Assembly: GCF_000739995.1 (NCBI RefSeq)
Contig: NZ_BBJX01000004.1
Location: 186,001 to 250,000 of the forward strand
Length of the DNA: 64,000 nt
Origin: Comamonas granuli NBRC 101663
GTDB taxonomy: Bacteria; Pseudomonadota; Gammaproteobacteria; Burkholderiales; Burkholderiaceae_C
Direction of reading: 5' to 3'
Position numbers and translations under genes: made by a program. The notes beneath the pieces are model-generated. The model made no database searches and was not told the origin of the DNA. It saw only the letters and a program-made list of their open reading frames with translations. Shown in pieces: positions 6,382-57,610 of this stretch. The number at the start of each line of letters is the position of its first letter. Positions within the stretch are counted from its first letter, which is position 1.

Positions 6382-8412
6382 TCAGCCCTGGGCGACATGC
6401 GCAAAGGGCCGGCGCTCCTGCCACCAGGAAAGCACCTGTTCGACGGTTTCTTCGACCGTGAGCCCGGAGCAATCGAGCAGCAAAGCATCCTGCGCCGGCT
6501 CCAAGGGCGCCACCGCGCGGGAGCGGTCCCGCTGGTCGCGTGCCTCGAGGTCGGCGCGAAGAGCGTCGATTGTAGTGCTGACGCCCTTTGAAATCAACTG
6601 CTGGTGGCGCCGCTGTGCGCGGCACTCCACGCTGGCGGTGAGGAAGACCTTGAGCGTGGCGTCGGGGAAGATCACCGTGCCCATGTCGCGCCCGTCGGCC
6701 ACCAGGCCGGGCAGGGTGCGAAAGCCGTGCTGCAGGTGCACCAGCGCCTGGCGCACCGCGGGCAGGGCCGAGACGCGCGAGGCGTTCATGCCGGCCTCCT
6801 CGGTGCGGATGGCTTCGGTCACGTCGTCCGCGCCCAGCCAGATGGCCCCGGCCTCGAAGCGCACCGGCAGGCTGCGCGCCAGGGCGGCGATGGCCTCTTC
6901 CTGGGCGGCGTTGATGGCCAGGCCGGCGCGCGTGGCCGCCAGCGCGGTGACGCGGTACAGCGCCCCGGAGTCGAGGAAGCGGTAGCCCAGGCGCGCCGCC
7001 ACGGCGGCGGCCACCGTGCCCTTGCCCGATGCCGTGGGGCCGTCGATGCAGATCACGGGAATGCGCGCGTCCTCGGCCTGCACGGCGGCGAACAGCGCCT
7101 CGAAATAGTCCGGAAAGGTCTTGGCCACGCAGCGCGGGTCTTCGATGCGCACGGGCAGGCGCGCGGGGTTGAAGGCCGCGAGCGAGAAGCACATGGCGAC
7201 GCGGTGGTCGTCATAGGTGTGGATGCTGGCGGGCCGCCAGTCGCGCACCTGGGCGGGGGGGGTGATGCGGATCCAGTCGGCGCCTTCCTCGACCGTGGCG
7301 CCGAGCTTGCGCAGTTCGGTGGCCATGGCGGCGATGCGGTCGGTCTCCTTGACGCGCCAGCTCGCGATGTTGTGCAGCCGCGTGGGGCCGTCGGCATAGA
7401 GCGCCATCACGGCCAGGGTCATGGCGGCGTCGGGAATGTGGTTGCAGTCCAGGTCCAGGGCGCGCAGCGGCCAGGTGCCGCGCGCCACCTCCAGCCAGTT
7501 GGGGCCGCCGCTGATGTGCGCGCCCATGGCCCGTGCGGCCTCGACGAAGCGGATGTCGCCCTGGATGGAGTCCAGCCCCACGCCCAGGATTTTCATGCTT
7601 TTTTGGCCTCCAACGCCCGCTGCGATTGCGCCAGCAGCTATGAAATAGCTAGCAGATGAGGCGTCGGCCTCGACGTGGATCTGCCCGGGCGAGCGGTAGC
7701 GGCTGCCCGCCGGGATGGTGAAGCGCTGCCAGTGCTCGTGCGCCACGCGGATGCCGAAGCGCTCGAGCAGTTGCAGGGTGATGTGGATGTAGGGCTTGGA
7801 GATGAGCTCGCCCACCACTTCAATGACCACGTCCTGCTGCGCCGCCGCCAGCGGCAGGGCCATGAGCAGGGCGGTGAGGAACTGGCTGGAGACGTCGCCG
7901 CGCACGCGGATGGGTGCGGCGAGCGCGAGCGCCGGCACGCCGGCGGCCTGGTCGATGTGCAGCGGCGGGTAGCCTTCGTTGCCCAGGTAGGCGATGCGGC
8001 AGCCGAGCTGGCGCAGCGCATCGACCAGGTCGCCGATGGGGCGCTCGTGCATGCGTGCGATGCCGCTGAGCTCGAAGCTTCCGCCCAGCAGCGCGAGTGC
8101 CGCGGTGAGCGGGCGCATGGCGGTGCCCGCGTTGCCCAGGAACAGCCGGGCCGGGGAGCGCGGCGCCCGGCCGCCCAGGCCGGTGATGCGCACCTGCGCG
8201 CCGTCCGCCTCGACGGCGCAGCCAAGCTGGCGCAGCGCATCGAGCATGACGCGCGTGTCGTCCGAGTCCAGCAGGTCGTGCACCGCCGTGGTGCCTTCGC
8301 TCAGCGCGGCGAGCAGCAGCACCCGGTTGGAGATGCTCTTGGAGCCGGGCAGGTGGACGGTGCCCCCGGCGGATTGCAGGGGCGGCAGGTCGAGGAATGC
8401 GGTGCTGTACAT
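6382..8412 (-). CDS. aroA-cmk: Bifunctional EPSP synthase / cytidylate kinase (AroA-Cmk fusion)
   Basis: One 676-aa protein with two enzymes. Residues 1 to about 445 are 5-enolpyruvylshikimate-3-phosphate synthase (shikimate pathway), with LPGSKS 21-26, [10 protein letters not shown] 93-102, DDHRVAM 401-407 and KTFPDYF 431-437. Residues from about 451 to the end are CMP kinase, with P-loop GPTASGKGT 458-466, DSGALYR and [13 protein letters not shown]. The join is short ([15 protein letters not shown]), so this is a true fusion. Fused aroA-cmk genes are known in betaproteobacteria and fit the cmk-rpsA order seen here. Residues 251-272 are encoded by DNA matching the dispersed repeat family of this genome. 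An ATG at 8412 starts a normal EPSPS N-terminus. Confidence 0.96.
7599..7656 (-). repeat. Dispersed hairpin repeat, intragenic copy within aroA
   Basis: On the coding strand this reads GCTAGCTATTTCATAGCTGC, then TGGCGCAATCG, then GGGCGTTGGAGGCCAAAAAA. It matches the pattern of the intergenic copies at 29946, 31453 and 42536 (TAGCTG, TGGCGC, GCGTTGGAGGCCAAAA). It stays in frame and supplies codons for roughly residues 253-272 of AroA-Cmk, with unusually AT-rich codons (TCA, TCT, GCT, ATA, CAA, AAA) for this GC-rich gene. The ends are approximate. Confidence 0.6.
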
Positions 8413-11629: not shown

Positions 11630-11639
11630 GGTTTTTGGG

Positions 11640-11697
11640 ATCAAATCGGCTTCTAACGCTTGGTGGGCGTGCGCTGGAAGCTCTGTTTTTGATAGTA
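11640..11697 (-). repeat. Dispersed hairpin repeat copy between gyrA and serC
   Basis: On the minus strand the element reads CTATCAAAAACAGAGCTTCC, AGCGCACG, CAAGCGTTAGAAGCC, GATTTGATCC. The arms AGCTTCCAGCGC and GCGTTAGAAGC can pair. It resembles the copies at 45733 and 42536 in order of motifs. It occupies most of the serC leader. Confidence 0.6.
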
Positions 11698-11740
11698 CAG
11701 CGCGCACCGGCCGGCAGGCAGGTGCGCGCGGGCGGCGGGG

Positions 11741-16864: not shown

Positions 16865-18190
16865 ATGGCTGAGGCCCGGCCACCCGCCCGCATCGGCAAA
16901 TACCGCATCGAGCGCGAGATCGGCCGCGGCGCCAGCGGCGTGGTGTACCTGGGGCTGGACGGCTTCCGGGGCCGCAGCGTGGCCATCAAGCAGATGCATG
17001 CCCACCTGCTGGCCGATCCGCAGCAGGCCCAGCGCTACCGCCGCCTGCTGCGCAACGAGGCGCTGCTGGCCGGGCGCTTGCGCCACCCGCACATCGTGCG
17101 CCTGCTCGATGCGGACGAGCAGGCCGTGCCGCCCTACCTGGTGCTCGAATACGTGGCGGGCCGGCCCCTGTCGGACCACGCTGCGCCCGACCGCCTGCTG
17201 CCCGTGGCGCAGGTGTTGGACATTGCCTTCAAGTGCGGCCAGGCGCTGGAGCACGCCCAGCGCCAGGGGCTGGTGCACCGTGACATCAAGCCGGCCAACA
17301 TCCTGCTGTCCGAGCAGGGCGAGGTCAAGCTGGCAGATTTCGGCACGGCGTTGTCCTTGCGCAGCGAGGCGACGCAGATCGCCGGCTTGGTCGGCTCGCC
17401 CTCCTATATGTCGCCCGAGCAAGTGCGCGAAGAGGCGCTGACGCACCACAGCGACATGTTCTCCCTGGCCGTGGTGGTGTACGAACTGCTCACGGGCCGC
17501 CGCCCCTTCGACGGCGAGACCGACTTCGCCACGCTCTACCGCATCGGCCATGACGAGCCGGTGCCGCCCAGCCTGCTGCGCCCCAGCCTGCCGCCGCAGC
17601 TGGACCGCTGGCTGCTGCGCGCCCTGGCCAAGCCCGCAGCCGAGCGCTACGCGGGTTGGGACGACTGGTGCGGCGCGCTCATGGCCCTGGCCCGCGGCCT
17701 GCCGCACCAGCACTCGCAGGACACCGACTCCGAGCGCTTTGCGCGCCTGCGTGCACTGCCGTTCTTCGCCGATTTCCACGACGTGGTGCTCTGGGAGCTC
17801 ATGCGCCTGGGCAAGTGGCGCCGCCTGGAGCGCGGCACCGTGCTCATGCGCGAGAACACCCCTGGCGACTCGTTCTGCGTGCTCATCGAGGGCCAGGTGG
17901 CCGTGAGCCGCCAGGGCTGGCACCTGAGCACGCTGGGGCCCGGGGTGACGCTGGGCGAAATGACCTACCTGCGACCGGACAAGCGCCTGCGCACCGCCAC
18001 CGCCGTGGCCGAGACCGACGTGCTGGTGCTCAAGATCCGCAACCCGGCGCTGCGCGAGGCCTCGGAGGACCTGCAGTCGCGCTTCGACAAGGCCTTCATC
18101 CGCCTGCTGGTCCAGCGGCTCATTGCCACCAATGAGCAATTGGCGGAATGGGAGATCGTTGCCGCCCCGCATGCACCCGAAAGCGCCTGA
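16865..18190 (+). CDS. Hanks-type Ser/Thr protein kinase with C-terminal cyclic-nucleotide-binding domain
   Basis: A 441-aa soluble protein with two clear domains. The kinase has glycine loop GRGASG (20-25), Lys42, the catalytic loop HRDIKPAN (138-145), DFG (158-160) and YMSPEQ, so all catalytic residues are present. From about residue 299 a CRP/PKA-type cyclic-nucleotide-binding domain follows (RLERGTVLMREN, GDSFCVLIEGQVAVS). It keeps a Glu (365, in LGEM) and an Arg (376, in LRTATAV) at the positions that hold ribose and phosphate in cNMP binders. There is no membrane segment and no DNA-binding helix-turn-helix. The layout suggests a kinase gated by a small ligand, by analogy with eukaryotic PKG. 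Ligand and substrates are unknown; the domain may also have lost nucleotide binding. Confidence 0.9.
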   Translation: MAEARPPARIGKYRIEREIGRGASGVVYLGLDGFRGRSVAIKQMHAHLLADPQQAQRYRRLLRNEALLAGRLRHPHIVRLLDADEQAVPPYLVLEYVAGRPLSDHAAPDRLLPVAQVLDIAFKCGQALEHAQRQGLVHRDIKPANILLSEQGEVKLADFGTALSLRSEATQIAGLVGSPSYMSPEQVREEALTHHSDMFSLAVVVYELLTGRRPFDGETDFATLYRIGHDEPVPPSLLRPSLPPQLDRWLLRALAKPAAERYAGWDDWCGALMALARGLPHQHSQDTDSERFARLRALPFFADFHDVVLWELMRLGKWRRLERGTVLMRENTPGDSFCVLIEGQVAVSRQGWHLSTLGPGVTLGEMTYLRPDKRLRTATAVAETDVLVLKIRNPALREASEDLQSRFDKAFIRLLVQRLIATNEQLAEWEIVAAPHAPESA

Positions 18191-18193
18191 TGC

Positions 18194-18250
18194 TACTGAA
18201 AATATAGCTTGCAGCGCTTGTGTAGCAAGCGCTGCAAGCTGATTTTGTCT
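18194..18250 (+). repeat. Dispersed hairpin repeat acting as likely terminator after the kinase gene
   Basis: A perfect 15-bp inverted repeat, AGCTTGCAGCGCTTG (18206-18220) and its complement (18226-18240), encloses the loop TGTAG and is followed by GATTTTG. It starts just after the kinase stop and lies between two convergent genes, so it may end both transcripts. It shares motif order with the other copies in this window. Confidence 0.7.
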
Positions 18251-18285
18251 CAAACCCTGGGCAGACGACCGCCAGCAGGGGCGGC

Positions 18286-29939: not shown

Positions 29940-29945
29940 CCCATC

Positions 29946-30001
29946 TGCTATAGTATTGATAGCTTCTGGCGCTTGCTCCGCTTGCCCTGAGGGCCAAAAA
30001 C
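29946..30001 (+). repeat. Dispersed hairpin repeat copy after hemF
   Basis: Reads GCTATAGTATTGATAGCTTC, TGGCGCTTGC, CGCTTGCCCTGAGGGCCAAAAA. It carries the family core: TGATAGCT, GGCGCTTG, a short spacer and GGCCAAAAA. It fills the hemF-rsfS gap, where many betaproteobacteria have nadD. Confidence 0.7.
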
Positions 30002-30108
30002 AACCCAAACTCCCAACGGCGCGCATGCGCAACACCTGCGGAGCATTGCCCTGGTGAGCCCTGGCAATGCGCGCTATATTGACCCCATCACTTCACCCAC
30101 ACCGCCTG

Positions 30109-31428: not shown

Positions 31429-31452
31429 CCGGCCTGGGCCATGCAGGGGGAC

Positions 31453-31513
31453 TCCTGTATTCATAGCTGCCAGCGCTTGCTGGATAAGCCCTGGGGCCTG
31501 ATTTGACCCAAAA
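31453..31513 (+). repeat. Dispersed hairpin repeat copy between rlmH and maf
   Basis: Reads TGTATTCATAGCTGCCAGCG, CTTGCTGGATAAGC, CCTGGGGCCTGATTTGACCC. It has the family core TCATAGCTG, CAGCGCTTG, ATAAGC, GGGGCC. It ends 8 bases before the maf start codon. Confidence 0.65.
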
Positions 31514-31520
31514 TACTGCC

Positions 31521-41693: not shown

Positions 41694-44600
41694 GTGACCT
41701 TGCACAAGATTTCCTTTGCGGGGGGCAATGCCCTCAGCGCCTTCCGTGCCCAGCAACTGCAAAGCGCCCTTGCCACCATCCATCCGCGGATCAGCGGCGT
41801 GGCCGCGCGTTTCGTGCACCTCGTGGCGCTGGATGCCGCCCCCACGCCCGCGCAGCACGAGCGCCTGGCAGCCCTGCTGAACTATGGCGACCCCTACCCA
41901 GGCCCCGAGGACGGGCTGCTGCTGGTCGTCACGCCGCGCCTGGGCACGGTCTCGCCCTGGGCGTCCAAGGCCACGGACATCGCGCGCAACTGCGGCCTGG
42001 ACGTGCACCGCGTGGAGCGCATCACCGAATACCGCCTCACGCTCAAGAGCGGCCTGCTCGGCGGCCCGCCGGAGGTCTCGCCCGGGCAGATTGCGCAGAT
42101 CGCCGCGCTCCTGCACGACCGCATGACCGAATCCGTGATGGCCAGCCGCGCCGAAGCCGAGCAACTGTTCACCGAGCTCGATGCCCAGCCCATGGAGTTC
42201 GTCGATGTGCTGCAGGGCGGCCGCGCGGCGCTGGAAGCCGCCAACCGGCAATGGGGCCTGGCGCTGGCCGACGACGAGATCGACTACCTCGTCAACGCCT
42301 TCCAGGGCCTGGCGCGCAACCCCACCGACGTGGAGCTGATGATGTTCGCCCAGGCCAACAGCGAGCATTGCCGGCACAAGATCTTCAACGCCCAGTTCAC
42401 CATCGACGGCGTGCCGCAGGAGAAAAGCCTGTTCGGCATGATCCGCCACACCGAGCAGGTTTCGCCCCAGCACACCATCGTCGCCTACGCCGACAACGCC
42501 TCCATCATGGAAGGCAACCAGGTCGAGCGATTTGTGGCAAAAATGGGCTCTAACGCCCATGGAATAAGCGTAAACAGCTATCAAAAAGAGAGCGCAACGC
42601 ACCATGTGCTGATGAAGGTGGAAACGCACAACCACCCCACGGCCATTTCGCCCTTCCCTGGTGCCTCGACCGGCGCGGGCGGCGAGATCCGCGACGAGGG
42701 CGCCACGGGCCGCGGCTCCAAGCCCAAGGCGGGGCTGACGGGCTTTACCGTCTCCAGGCTGTGGGGCGGCCTGAGCGACCAGCCCGGCGGCAAGCCCGAG
42801 CACATCGCCAGCCCGCTGCAGATCATGACCGAGGGGCCGCTGGGCGGCGCCGCGTTCAACAACGAATTCGGGCGGCCCAACCTGGCGGGCTACTTCCGCG
42901 AGTACGAGCAGGAGGTGGGCGGCGTGCAGCGCGGCTACCACAAGCCCATCATGATCGCGGGCGGTGTGGGCAGCATCGACGCCACGCTCACGCACAAGAT
43001 CGCATTCCCCGCCGGCACGTTGCTGGTGCAACTGGGCGGCCCGGGCATGCGCATCGGCATGGGCGGCGGCGCCGCCAGTTCCATGGCCACGGGCCAGAAC
43101 GCGGCCGAGCTCGATTTCGACTCCGTGCAGCGTGGCAACCCCGAGATCGAGCGCCGTGCGCAGGAAGTCATCAACCACTGCTGGGCGCTGGGCGCGGACA
43201 ACCCCATCCTGGCCATCCACGACGTGGGCGCGGGCGGCCTGTCCAACGCCTTCCCCGAGCTGACGAACGACGCCGGCCGGGGCGCACGCTTTGACCTGCG
43301 CGCCGTGCCGCTGGAGGAATCGGGCCTGGCGCCCAAGGAAATCTGGAGCAATGAGAGCCAGGAGCGCTACGTGCTGGCCATCGCGCCCGAGTCGCTGGAG
43401 CTGTTCCGCGCCTTTTGCGAGCGCGAGCGCTGCCCCTTTGCCGTGATCGGCACCGCCACCGAAGAGCGCCAACTGGTGCTCGAAGACACCGCCGCCCAGG
43501 CCGCCGACCAGAAGCTGCCCGTGGACATGCCCATGGCCGTGCTGCTGGGCAAGCCGCCCAAGATGCACCGCGACGTGCAAACCGTGCAGCGCCCGCTTCA
43601 GCCCATCGACCTGACCGGCGTGCCGCTGCAAAAGGCCGTGATCGACGTGCTGAGCTACCCCACGGTGGCGTCCAAGCGCTTCCTCGTCACCATTGGCGAC
43701 CGCACCGTGGGCGGCCTCACGCACCGCGACCAGATGGTCGGCCCCTGGCAGGTGCCCGTGGCCGACTGCGCCGTCACGCTGGCCGACTACCGGGGCTTTG
43801 CCGGCGAGGCCATGGCCATGGGCGAGCGCACGCCGCTGGCCGCCCTCAACGCCCCGGCCTCGGGCCGCATGGCGGTGGCGGAAGCCATCACCAACCTGCT
43901 GGCGGCGCCCATAGCGCTGCCGCGCGTGAAGCTGTCGGCCAACTGGATGGCCGCCTGCGGCGAGCCGGGCGAAGACGCCGACCTGTACGCCACCGTCAAG
44001 GCCGTGGGCATGGAGCTGTGCCCGCAACTGGGCATCAGCATCCCCGTGGGCAAGGACTCGCTGTCCATGCGCACGCAGTGGAAGGACGGCGACGCGCAGA
44101 AGAAGGTGGTCTCGCCCGTGAGCCTGATCGTGAGCAGCTTTGCCACGCTGCAGGACGTGCGCGGCACGCTCACGCCGCAGCTCGACGCCAGCGAGGAAGA
44201 CACCACGCTGGTGCTCATCGACCTGGGCAAGGGCCAGTGCCGCATGGGCGGCAGCATCCTGGGCCAGGTGCTCGACCAGGCCGGCGACACCGTGCCCGAC
44301 CTCGACGACGCCCAGGACCTGGTGAATCTGGTGAACGCCGTGAACGCGCTGCGCGCCAAGGGCCAGATCCTCGCCTACCACGACCGCAGCGACGGTGGCC
44401 TGCTCGCCACCGTGGCCGAGATGGCCTTTGCCGGCCATGTGGGCGTGGCGCTGAACGTGGACATGCTGGTCACCGAGGGCGACGGCATCAGCGACAGCCG
44501 CATGGACGCGGGCGACGCCAAGAACTGGGCCGGCCAGATCAGCGCGCGGCGCGACGAGCTCACGCTCAAGGCGCTGTTCAACGAAGAACTGGGCGTGGTG

Positions 44601-45713
44601 CTGCAGGTGCGCACGGCCGAGCGCAACGAGGTCATGCAGGTGCTGCGCGCGCATGGCCTCTCCCGCTGGAGCCACTTCGTGGGCAAGACGCGCCCCGTAT
44701 CCAGCACCATGGACGTGGGCAAGGGCGAGCTGCAGGTCTGGCGCGACGCCAAGGCCATCTTCAGCGCCCCGCTCGAAGACCTGCACCAGGTCTGGGACGC
44801 CGTGAGCTGGAAGATCTGCCAGCAGCGCGACAACCCCGCCTGCGCCGACGCCGAGCATGCGGCCGCGGGCCAGGCGGCCGACCCCGGCCTGCATGTGCAC
44901 CTGACGTTCGATCCGGCGCAGGACGTGGCCGCGCCGTACCTGAACCTCGCGCGCCCCAAGGTCGCAGTGCTGCGCGAGCAGGGCGTGAACTCGCACGTGG
45001 AAATGGCCTACGCCTTCACCGAGGCCGGTTTCGAGGCGCACGACGTGCACATGACCGACCTGCAGAGCGGCCGCGCGCGCCTGGAAGACTTCCAGGGCAT
45101 CGTGGCCTGCGGCGGTTTCAGCTACGGCGACACGCTGGGCGCGGGCATAGGCTGGGCGCGCTCCATCACCTTCAACCCGGTGCTGGCCGCGCAGTTCCAG
45201 GGCTTCTTCGCGCGCCCCGACACCTTCGGCCTGGGCGTGTGCAACGGCTGCCAGATGTTCGCCGAGCTGGCCGACATCATCCCCGGCGCGCAGGACTGGC
45301 CGCGCTTCACCACCAACCAGAGCGAGCGCTTCGAGGCCCGCCTGTCGCTGGTGGAAGTGCTGGAGTCGCCCAGCCTGTTCTTCGCCGGCATGGCCGGCAG
45401 CCGCCTGCCCATCGCCGTGGCGCACGGCGAGGGCTATGCCAACTTCAAGTACCGGGGCAACGCCGACAAGGCCATCGCCGCCATGCGCTTCGTGGACCAC
45501 ACGGGCGCCGCCACCGAGCAGTACCCGTTCAACCCCAATGGCAGCCCTGGCGGCCTGACGGCGGTGACCACGCTGGATGGCCGCTTCACGGCCATGATGC
45601 CGCACCCCGAGCGCGTGTTCCGCAACATCCAGATGAGTTGGACGGACGGCGACAAGTCGCAGTTCAGCCCCTGGATGCGCCTGTGGCGCAATGCGCGCAA
45701 GTGGGTCGGTTGA
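41694..45713 (+). CDS. purL: Phosphoribosylformylglycinamidine synthase (large PurL)
   Basis: Converts FGAR to FGAM with glutamine in purine synthesis; 1339 aa, the single-chain large form. The ATP-binding FGAM synthase core has [28 protein letters not shown] and [12 protein letters not shown]. The C-terminal glutaminase has [12 protein letters not shown], the catalytic Cys in GVCNGCQMF and His in PHPERVF. A GTG at 41694 ([11 protein letters not shown]) is the best start; upstream codons overlap map control sequence. A TAAAAT at 41621 may be its -10 element. Residues about 281-299 ([19 protein letters not shown]) are encoded by a copy of the dispersed repeat. They sit just before the conserved [14 protein letters not shown], in a loop that varies between species. 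Confidence 0.96.
42536..42590 (-). repeat. Dispersed hairpin repeat, intragenic in-frame copy within purL
   Basis: Read on the minus strand it gives CTCTTTTTGATAGCTGTTTA, CGCTTATTCCATGGGCGTTAG, AGCCCATTTTTG. It has the full family core: TTTTTGATAGCTG, CGCTTA, GGCGTTAGAGCC and a T run. It is in frame with purL, without a stop, and brings AT-rich codons (AAA, TCT, ATA, GTA, TAT, CAA) into a gene that otherwise avoids them. The orientation is opposite to purL transcription. Confidence 0.8.
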
Positions 45714-45732: not shown

Positions 45733-45790
45733 ACTACAAAAACAATAGCTTCCAGCGCTTGATCCACAAGCGTTGGAAGCTATTTTTGTT
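45733..45790. repeat. Dispersed hairpin repeat and likely terminator after purL
   Basis: AATAGCTTCCAGCGCTTG (45744-45761) pairs with CAAGCGTTGGAAGCTATT (45767-45784) with a single G-T wobble, loop ATCCA, followed by TTTGTT. An 18-bp stem with a T-rich flank is a credible intrinsic terminator for purL. It ends about 35 bases before the DUF808 gene. Confidence 0.75.
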
Positions 45791-45825
45791 CATAATCTGC
45801 GCTTCCACCGATTTCTGGAGCCCCC

Positions 45826-57447: not shown

Positions 57448-57540
57448 GCGGAGCAGTCTGCCAACAGTTGTTGCGGAGTGTGACTGCCCCAGTGTACGGC
57501 CCGGCGCCATGCCGTCGGGCCAGGATGAAGGTGCTTTTCC

Positions 57541-57598
57541 GCTATCTATTCAATAGCTGTTCGCGCAATGTGGGCGAGCTTTCGAGGCGTTTTTTGCT
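57541..57598 (+). repeat. Dispersed hairpin repeat copy between rlhA and the P-type ATPase
   Basis: Reads GCTATCTATTCAATAGCTGT, TCGCGCAATGTGGGCGAG, CTTTCGAGGCGTTTTTTGC. It has the family layout (TATTCAATAGCTG, CGCGCAA, GAGGCG then T run) but is the most diverged copy. It lies in the 163-base gap and would be transcribed in the rlhA 3' region. Confidence 0.5.
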
Positions 57599-57610
57599 TG
57601 AAAACGAAAA

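Follow-up and report, generated by a model that had tools for sequence, protein, structure and literature searches.

A dispersed DNA element of about 75 bp lies in frame in the EPSP synthase half of aroA-cmk and tends to follow the dialect of its genome across genera

REP/ERIC-type repeats occur as many partly palindromic copies behind genes, with few in divergent gaps, and DNA uptake sequences (DUS) are words of about 12 bp. The Neisseriaceae DUS are described as dispersed copies with lineage dialects, the intergenic ones often in inverted pairs at terminators and the intragenic ones in permissive sites (PMC3630211). Rickettsia palindromic elements (RPE) are described as units of about 150 bp integrated in frame in unrelated genes (PMC10969869). 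BRE is a small repeat of the Burkholderiales, including Comamonadaceae, with some copies wholly in coding sequence; in Bordetella, full-length units measure 75 to 91 bp at 69% G+C, with at most 29 counted per genome and some in tandem (PMC3110155). Here, we describe a family of dispersed DNA elements of about 75 bp that occurs in many genera of one bacterial family and includes an in-frame copy in aroA. It resembles the Neisseriaceae DUS in its many copies, its lineage-specific dialects, and its intragenic copies in permissive places, and by analogy the uptake-sequence dialects of the Neisseriaceae are its closest parallel. Unlike the short-word DUS, its unit is an approximately 75-bp composite. 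It shares with RPE in-frame copies in unrelated protein genes, and departs from them in that the front half of the aroA copy is a synonymous respelling and aroA copies tend toward the genome-wide dialect. Its copies lie behind genes and rarely in divergent gaps, as do those of REP/ERIC repeats, from which it differs by a coding copy coupled to genome dialect. With up to several hundred copies per genome, it differs from BRE as described in copy number. A search of the open literature, with subscription papers mostly outside its reach, found no account of this family, and an Rfam search of the window (the whole 64-kb stretch of DNA analyzed) returned a tRNA only.

The window carries an aroA-cmk fusion gene with a product of 676 residues, which joins an EPSP synthase part (residues 16-440; Pfam PF00275, EPSP_synthase, E 5.7e-116) to a cytidylate kinase part (residues 454-663; PF02224, Cytidylate_kin, E 4.7e-68). 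The first-pass annotation had proposed an in-frame repeat copy at 7599-7656, with a shift in codon use confined to it, and had counted this copy as the second in the gene. The copy is real. It falls inside a minus-strand match at 7659-7584 to a hidden Markov model (HMM) made from 31 copies of the same genome, aroA excluded; the match spans model positions 3-78 of 82 (E 5.5e-7 in the 64-kb window) and is thus nearly full length. The gene and the parts of its element are as follows.

6382-8412, minus strand: aroA-cmk fusion gene (open reading frame and Pfam)
7584-7659, minus strand: in-frame copy of the dispersed element inside aroA, residues about 251-276 (HMM, third-position GC content, synonymous shuffles)
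7650-7654, minus strand: block TGCTA of the aroA element (sequence compared with family copies)
7637-7641, minus strand: block ATAGC of the aroA element, which holds the ATA codon of Ile258 (sequence compared with family copies; codon use)
7628-7631, minus strand: block GCGC of the aroA element (sequence compared with family copies)
7584-7609, minus strand: rear part of the aroA element, AGGCC and an A-rich end (relatives and solved chains)

The rear part coincides with about 5 residues that are extra relative to element-free EPSP synthases. Its end reads GGCCAAAAAAGCATGAAAATC in the window and GGCCAAAATGGCATCAAAAT in the aroA of many relatives, where it codes extra residues of the type GQNGIK. 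In its middle part, the aroA copy deviates from the family consensus.

The shift in codon use was confirmed: among 653 24-codon windows of aroA-cmk, the third-position GC content (GC3) is lowest (0.42) in those starting at codons 251 and 252, and it amounts to 0.46 for residues 253-276 and 0.93 for the remainder of the gene. Codon 258 is the sole ATA among 37 Ile codons, and codon 253 is the sole TCT. Synonymous sites match the repeat consensus beyond chance. In shuffles that kept the amino acids fixed and drew codons from the gene's own usage, none of 1,000 attained the real score of 24.9 bits, the maximum being 4.7. On one strand of 89 other aroA loci, both element-bearing and element-free, the same comparison left the real score unmatched by any of 300 shuffles in 39; most of the other 50 matched the family weakly or not at all. 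A further 11 loci comprised 9 with 0 of 1,000, one with 1 of 1,000, and an element-free one (L098) with 1,000 of 1,000. In a profile of synonymous conservation, the element ranks first among 381 windows (z 3.0), a partly circular result, with rows preselected for TAYTTYATAGC. The supposed first copy in the cmk half, taken as about 6573-6630, is not supported as a member of the family, with no match at E values up to 10. A milder GC3 dip (0.71; 24-codon windows starting at codons 595-607) occurs there at 6520-6630 and is possibly what had been read as that copy.

In the genome of the window, the family consensus is TGCTA-N8-ATAGC-N5-GCGC-N9-AAGCGCT-NN-AGGCC, and many copies, above all in other genera, extend past AGGCC with about N5-GGCTTGAAA. 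Copies agree at spaced key bases and diverge between them. This 3.5-Mb genome has 217 copies by the strict pattern and 0 by its reversal; across 26 genomes of the genus, strict counts range from 49 to 358 in 23 and are 0, 0, and 4 in the remaining three (G001, G015, and G022, hereafter repeat poor). Besides the intragenic copies, the window holds these intergenic ones.

31451-31519, plus strand: copy between rlmH and maf (HMM E 1.7e-14)
29942-30008, plus strand: copy behind hemF, oxygen-dependent coproporphyrinogen oxidase (HMM E 4.8e-8)
18187-18261, plus strand: copy between convergent gene ends (HMM, gene calls)
45733-45800, plus strand: copy behind purL (HMM, gene calls)
11631-11699, minus strand: copy between gyrA and serC (HMM, gene calls)
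57539-57605, plus strand: copy between two minus-strand genes (HMM, gene calls)

Placement was counted against genes from a simple purpose-made caller. None of the 30 own-genome copies with the fewest mismatches lies inside a gene; convergent gaps account for 11, tandem gaps for 18 (10 co-directional and 8 opposite), and a divergent gap for 1. Two complete genomes (G008 and G029), sampled at even spacing for a total of 0.8 Mb, yielded 81 copies, of which 10 lie in genes and 2 at edges; tandem gaps contain 21 co-directional and 26 opposite copies, convergent gaps 18, and divergent gaps 4. The same 0.8 Mb offers 304 tandem, 62 convergent, and 89 divergent gaps of at least 30 bases. Copies prefer gene 3' ends, shun divergent gaps, and are indifferent to strand, a pattern that speaks for action at the DNA level. 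No KOPS-like replication-strand polarity was seen in the 0.8 Mb of the two genomes; G008 has 15 plus and 6 minus copies where the skew is positive and 14 and 11 where it is negative, and G029 has no clear pattern. The elements were compared with two familiar classes. An intrinsic terminator, with a stable hairpin and a T run in fixed orientation, is not what folding, covariation, and strand counts describe. Nor is there the genome-wide enrichment of a DUS-type short word in ATAGCTG, which outside full elements occurs 23 times for 22.5 expected and 30 times for 24.9 expected; among 11 words tried there, it and most others stand at expectation, though AAGCGCT is enriched (19 versus 11, 106 versus 67, and 100 versus 46 expected, in the window and L366-L405), perhaps because of partial copies.

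PurL carries the second in-frame intragenic copy of the window.

42524-42597, minus strand: second in-frame intragenic copy, antisense to purL (HMM E 6.7e-8)
41694-45713, plus strand: coding sequence of purL, phosphoribosylformylglycinamidine synthase (NF003672)

A survey of the genus fetched 22 purL loci and reached the region in 20. All 17 repeat-rich genomes in which the region was reached have the copy and none of the 3 repeat-poor ones does; in the latter, PurL is about 6 residues shorter at the element site. The purL copy thus repeats the aroA pattern of presence and absence within the genus. For synonymous spelling in the repeat-poor genomes, this site is fair for the front half of the element (rank 6 to 9 of about 6,700 placements) and poor for the whole element (rank 107 to 149 of about 6,600). 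Among the 10 in-gene copies of the two-genome sample, 9 host genes matched NCBIfam entries and 1 had no match; the hosts are a RarA-like AAA ATPase (below curated cutoffs), GluQRS, MiaA, MoeA, MutS, EarP, ComEC, a MATE transporter, and penicillin-binding protein 1C. These in-gene copies are at L372, L376, L378, L379, and L380 (G029) and L388, L389, L393, and L397 (G008). The antisense copies in MoeA and PurL share a peptide type, SASSYQ(N/K)E.

Relatives were compared at aroA loci retrieved with the 235 residues ahead of the stretch as bait; the bait ends before the stretch, which therefore had no influence on locus choice. TAYTTYATAGC is found in 60 of the 102 loci read (78 of 80 named loci and 24 of 26 genomes of the genus). 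Named loci of Acidovorax, Simplicispira, Curvibacter, and Xenophilus carry the element, and those of Limnohabitans (6 of 6) and Ramlibacter (3 of 3) lack it; Rhodoferax, Polaromonas, Comamonas, and Variovorax include loci of both kinds. Within the genus, it occurs in 22 of 22 repeat-rich genomes with readable aroA. The three repeat-poor genomes form one clade (support 93), so that the genus contrast is probably a single event. In a sample of one genome per genus, aroA was obtained from 119 of 120; with repeat rich defined as a dialect-tolerant count of 10 or more, 22 genera are rich with the element in aroA, 9 rich without, 5 poor with, and 83 poor without (odds ratio 40, Fisher 2e-12, uncorrected for phylogeny). 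The strict pattern alone gives 12, 6, 15, and 86, respectively (p 1.5e-5), and 10 of the 15 strictly poor carriers do have the family, spelled differently. The other five (G143, G134, G072, G043, and G054) keep the front half and match poorly in the rear half. Had the stretch owed nothing to the family, relatives free of the family could show the same nucleotides in aroA. The outcome was mostly in favor of a tie to the family: the stretch is missing from both repeat-poor genomes of the genus whose aroA could be read (0 and 4 copies). Against it, 5 of the 27 element-bearing genera have few or no recognizable family copies. An aroA tree of 54 genomes, with the element columns removed, requires at least 10 changes of element state, and a phylogeny-aware pair test had 3 supported independent pairs only. 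Nine of the 31 repeat-rich genera lack the element in aroA. Two genomes stand as separate observations: G101 has two aroA genes (L141 and L170), one with the element and one without, beside 384 dispersed copies, and G082 (L149) has 83 copies, many in a distinct dialect with CCCGCG around the GCGC block, and no element in aroA.

The spelling of the family differs by genus. G058 has GAGCA...(A/T)GGGC, G066 has G(T/C)G(C/A/G)CC...AAGGGC, and G042 often has GGCGAGCG or GGCGGGCG. The coupling of aroA to these dialects was assessed in 18 genera with an aroA element, using a position weight matrix per genome from 6 to 12 copies, the aroA copy skipped; copies were chosen by a fixed rule, namely the first 12 listed or, where no list existed, the 6 loci retained by the search. 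Every aroA core was scored against every genome's matrix, with the double-centered diagonal as the statistic. It reached 5.62 nats (permutation standard deviation 0.90, z 6.2, p at the 5e-5 floor), and 43 homologous control windows in the same genes gave a mean of 0.12 and z of at most 2.0. The own dialect ranks first in 8 of the 18 genera and in the top three in 11 (median rank 2). Tracking is seen at codon position 3 alone (z 5.8) and at positions 1 and 2 alone (z 4.3), where the own dialect is first in 6 of 18 (G089, G114, G137, G066, G042, and G125). It persists without G058 and G066 (z 5.2) and without the six strongest genomes (z 3.5). G046 (rank 17 of 18) and G101 (12 of 18) do not track, and the window's own genome ranks 5 of 18. 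An earlier run with copies partly picked by eye gave 6.65 (z 6.7) and is not relied on. The enzyme most altered in the stretch is that of G058, whose own dialect comes first over all positions and ranks just 14 of 18 by positions 1 and 2, so that this genome as a lone protein-level example is suggestive only. Over the 18 genera, aroA tends to follow the dialect of its genome at synonymous and nonsynonymous positions alike.

The position of the element within aroA was evaluated in 8 element-free aroA proteins, hand-chosen from 42 element-free loci, by ranking every placement on either strand and in any phase by how well it allows synonymous spelling. At the SASYF site, the front half ranks 1 of 2,614 placements in all 8, and the whole element ranks 1 in 6 and 3 and 29 in the other two. 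Two solved EPSP synthase chains from more distant bacteria rank this site 2 and 1 of 2,446 for the front half and 53 and 11 for the whole; both lack 5 residues behind the motif relative to the window protein. The motif SASYF-I/L-A-x-GA thus looks preadapted, on sequence comparison, to the front half. An AlphaFold2 model (mean pLDDT 85.4) places a helix at 251-263, a loop at 264-271, and a strand at 272-276, and in this model the loop that takes the rear half looks like a tolerant one. ATNGC-N5-GCGC is present at the site in 36 of 95 element-free aroA sequences, and some of the bacterial family's element-free proteins may come from lineages that once had an element, whose imprint they retain; the high ranks in the two solved chains indicate a site suitable even without a past element. 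Two options had been offered for the stretch in the first-pass annotation, namely that the repeat took the place of the motif codons with the amino acids unchanged or that the two sequences converged, and the evidence favors a form that uses both. The motif looks preadapted, its codons adopted the element spelling, and about 5 residues were added behind them. The further suggestion that the repeat family was born from the aroA sequence is not supported.

Positional conservation was followed within the genus at two intergenic places, taking matches to E 0.05, some of them weak (9.5-13 bits). All 21 repeat-rich genomes that have sequence at the first place carry a copy 0.9-1.2 kb before rlmH; in the window, this copy sits in the gap between hemF and the gene that follows. 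At the second place, directly downstream of rlmH, a copy occurs in 17 of the 19 repeat-rich genomes whose downstream region could be read, G016 and G004 being the two without. The best match at both places is on the same strand in every genome. Neither copy occurs in the 2 repeat-poor genomes with rlmH (G001 and G022; G015 yielded no rlmH). At such shared places, the letters at variable positions change between genomes. Comparisons between copies took in 6 to 60 of the hundreds per genome. The closest pair among 31 own copies (82 nt) shares 58 identities versus 57.7 expected from column shuffling, and among 12 listed copies in each of nine genomes, the best pairs are within about 1.3 bases of the column-shuffled expectation; no near-identical pairs were found among the copies compared. 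Closest pairs of this kind, comparable to those of column-shuffled sets, render recent transposition or long-tract conversion unlikely for those copies. One close pair in G046 (34 versus 31.7, p 0.02) and an excess of mean nearest-neighbor identity in the own genome (z 2.8 to 6.1, the latter among 60 copies) leave room for some exchange or linked columns. A MITE- or RPE-type insertion was considered as a class for the family; the stability of the two places and the lack of near-identical pairs (12 to 60 copies per genome) do not agree with it, while the in-frame copies in unrelated genes do.

We lean, somewhat beyond even confidence, toward a DNA signal that is read by a co-evolving factor and was accommodated in aroA in place. 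Sites that are stationary, strand-free, variable by dialect at key bases, and missing together fit a co-evolving reader or biased uptake or recombination. The main rival is gene conversion, whereby the copies, including that in aroA, would swap short tracts and homogenize each genome to its own dialect. That aroA follows the genome dialect at coding-changing positions too would be expected from it, as would the nearest-neighbor excess in the own genome and the close pair in G046. We nevertheless regard gene conversion as unlikely, given that best pairs among the copies compared are mostly no closer than column-independent draws and that genomes sharing a place diverge freely at its variable positions. 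Such copies are also short and divergent for homologous recombination, which counts against it. A rather improbable alternative is a mobile, MITE-like or RPE-like element that entered an ancestral aroA, the absences arising by later decay. The roughly 5 extra residues at the element's place agree with it, as do the 10 of 81 sampled copies in genes, with MiaA, MoeA, MutS, GluQRS, ComEC, and penicillin-binding protein 1C among the hosts. It conflicts with a front half that substitutes codons and adds none, at the spot best for synonymous spelling, with intergenic copies that hold position at both places checked, with the absence of near-identical copies among those compared, and with dialect tracking, which plain inheritance does not predict; a recent insertion into aroA is not supported.

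Action at the RNA level, with the elements as terminators, 3' ends, or structure elements and the aroA copy kept for reasons of mRNA, we consider quite improbable. Location at gene 3' ends, scarcity in divergent gaps, and inverted repeats in several copies would suit it, yet copies lie on either strand relative to genes (21 versus 26) and antisense in purL, mean folding z scores per genome are -0.3 to -1.8 sense and 0.0 to -1.7 antisense, and seven stem pairs in 60 copies have no significant covariation (lowest p 0.06). It is highly improbable that the family originated in aroA and that its intergenic copies descend from that one: the element-free motif is indeed already element-like in the 36 of 95 sequences mentioned above, but the preadapted peptide is shared by the two solved chains from more distant bacteria, purL and ten further called genes bear copies, and the aroA copy is off consensus in its middle. 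That chance or regional base composition produced the aroA match is hardly credible in the light of the synonymous shuffles, none of 1,000 reaching the real score; moreover, shuffling letters within the aroA cores brought the dialect statistic of the earlier, partly hand-picked set from 6.65 to at most 3.06.

In the favored reading of a co-evolving factor, the elements would be candidate sites for a trans-acting reader at the DNA level, either a DNA-binding protein or a DNA uptake or recombination machinery, and selection or drive by this reader would hold copies to the current dialect. Sites would follow when the reader changes, and with its loss they would decay everywhere, in genes too. The aroA site would have arisen in place: SASYF-I/L-A-x-GA is probably one of the few peptides that allow a synonymous front half, its codons could come to spell that half without a change of protein, and a tolerant loop behind the motif would have taken about 5 extra residues for the rear half. 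It is possible, though we place this slightly short of even, that a genome-wide signal of hundreds of stationary sites with a putative co-evolving reader dictates part of the residues of the essential enzymes EPSP synthase and PurL, whose codons and, in places, residues would be rewritten as the dialect shifts. If true, this reading would mean that conserved codons and small insertions in aroA and purL need not be enzyme adaptation, and it would point to a large class of DNA sites in these bacteria, absent from the open literature searched. It would also constitute a natural experiment, one where protein sequence seems to be shaped by a dispersed DNA signal, with dozens of genera where reader and dialect could be paired.
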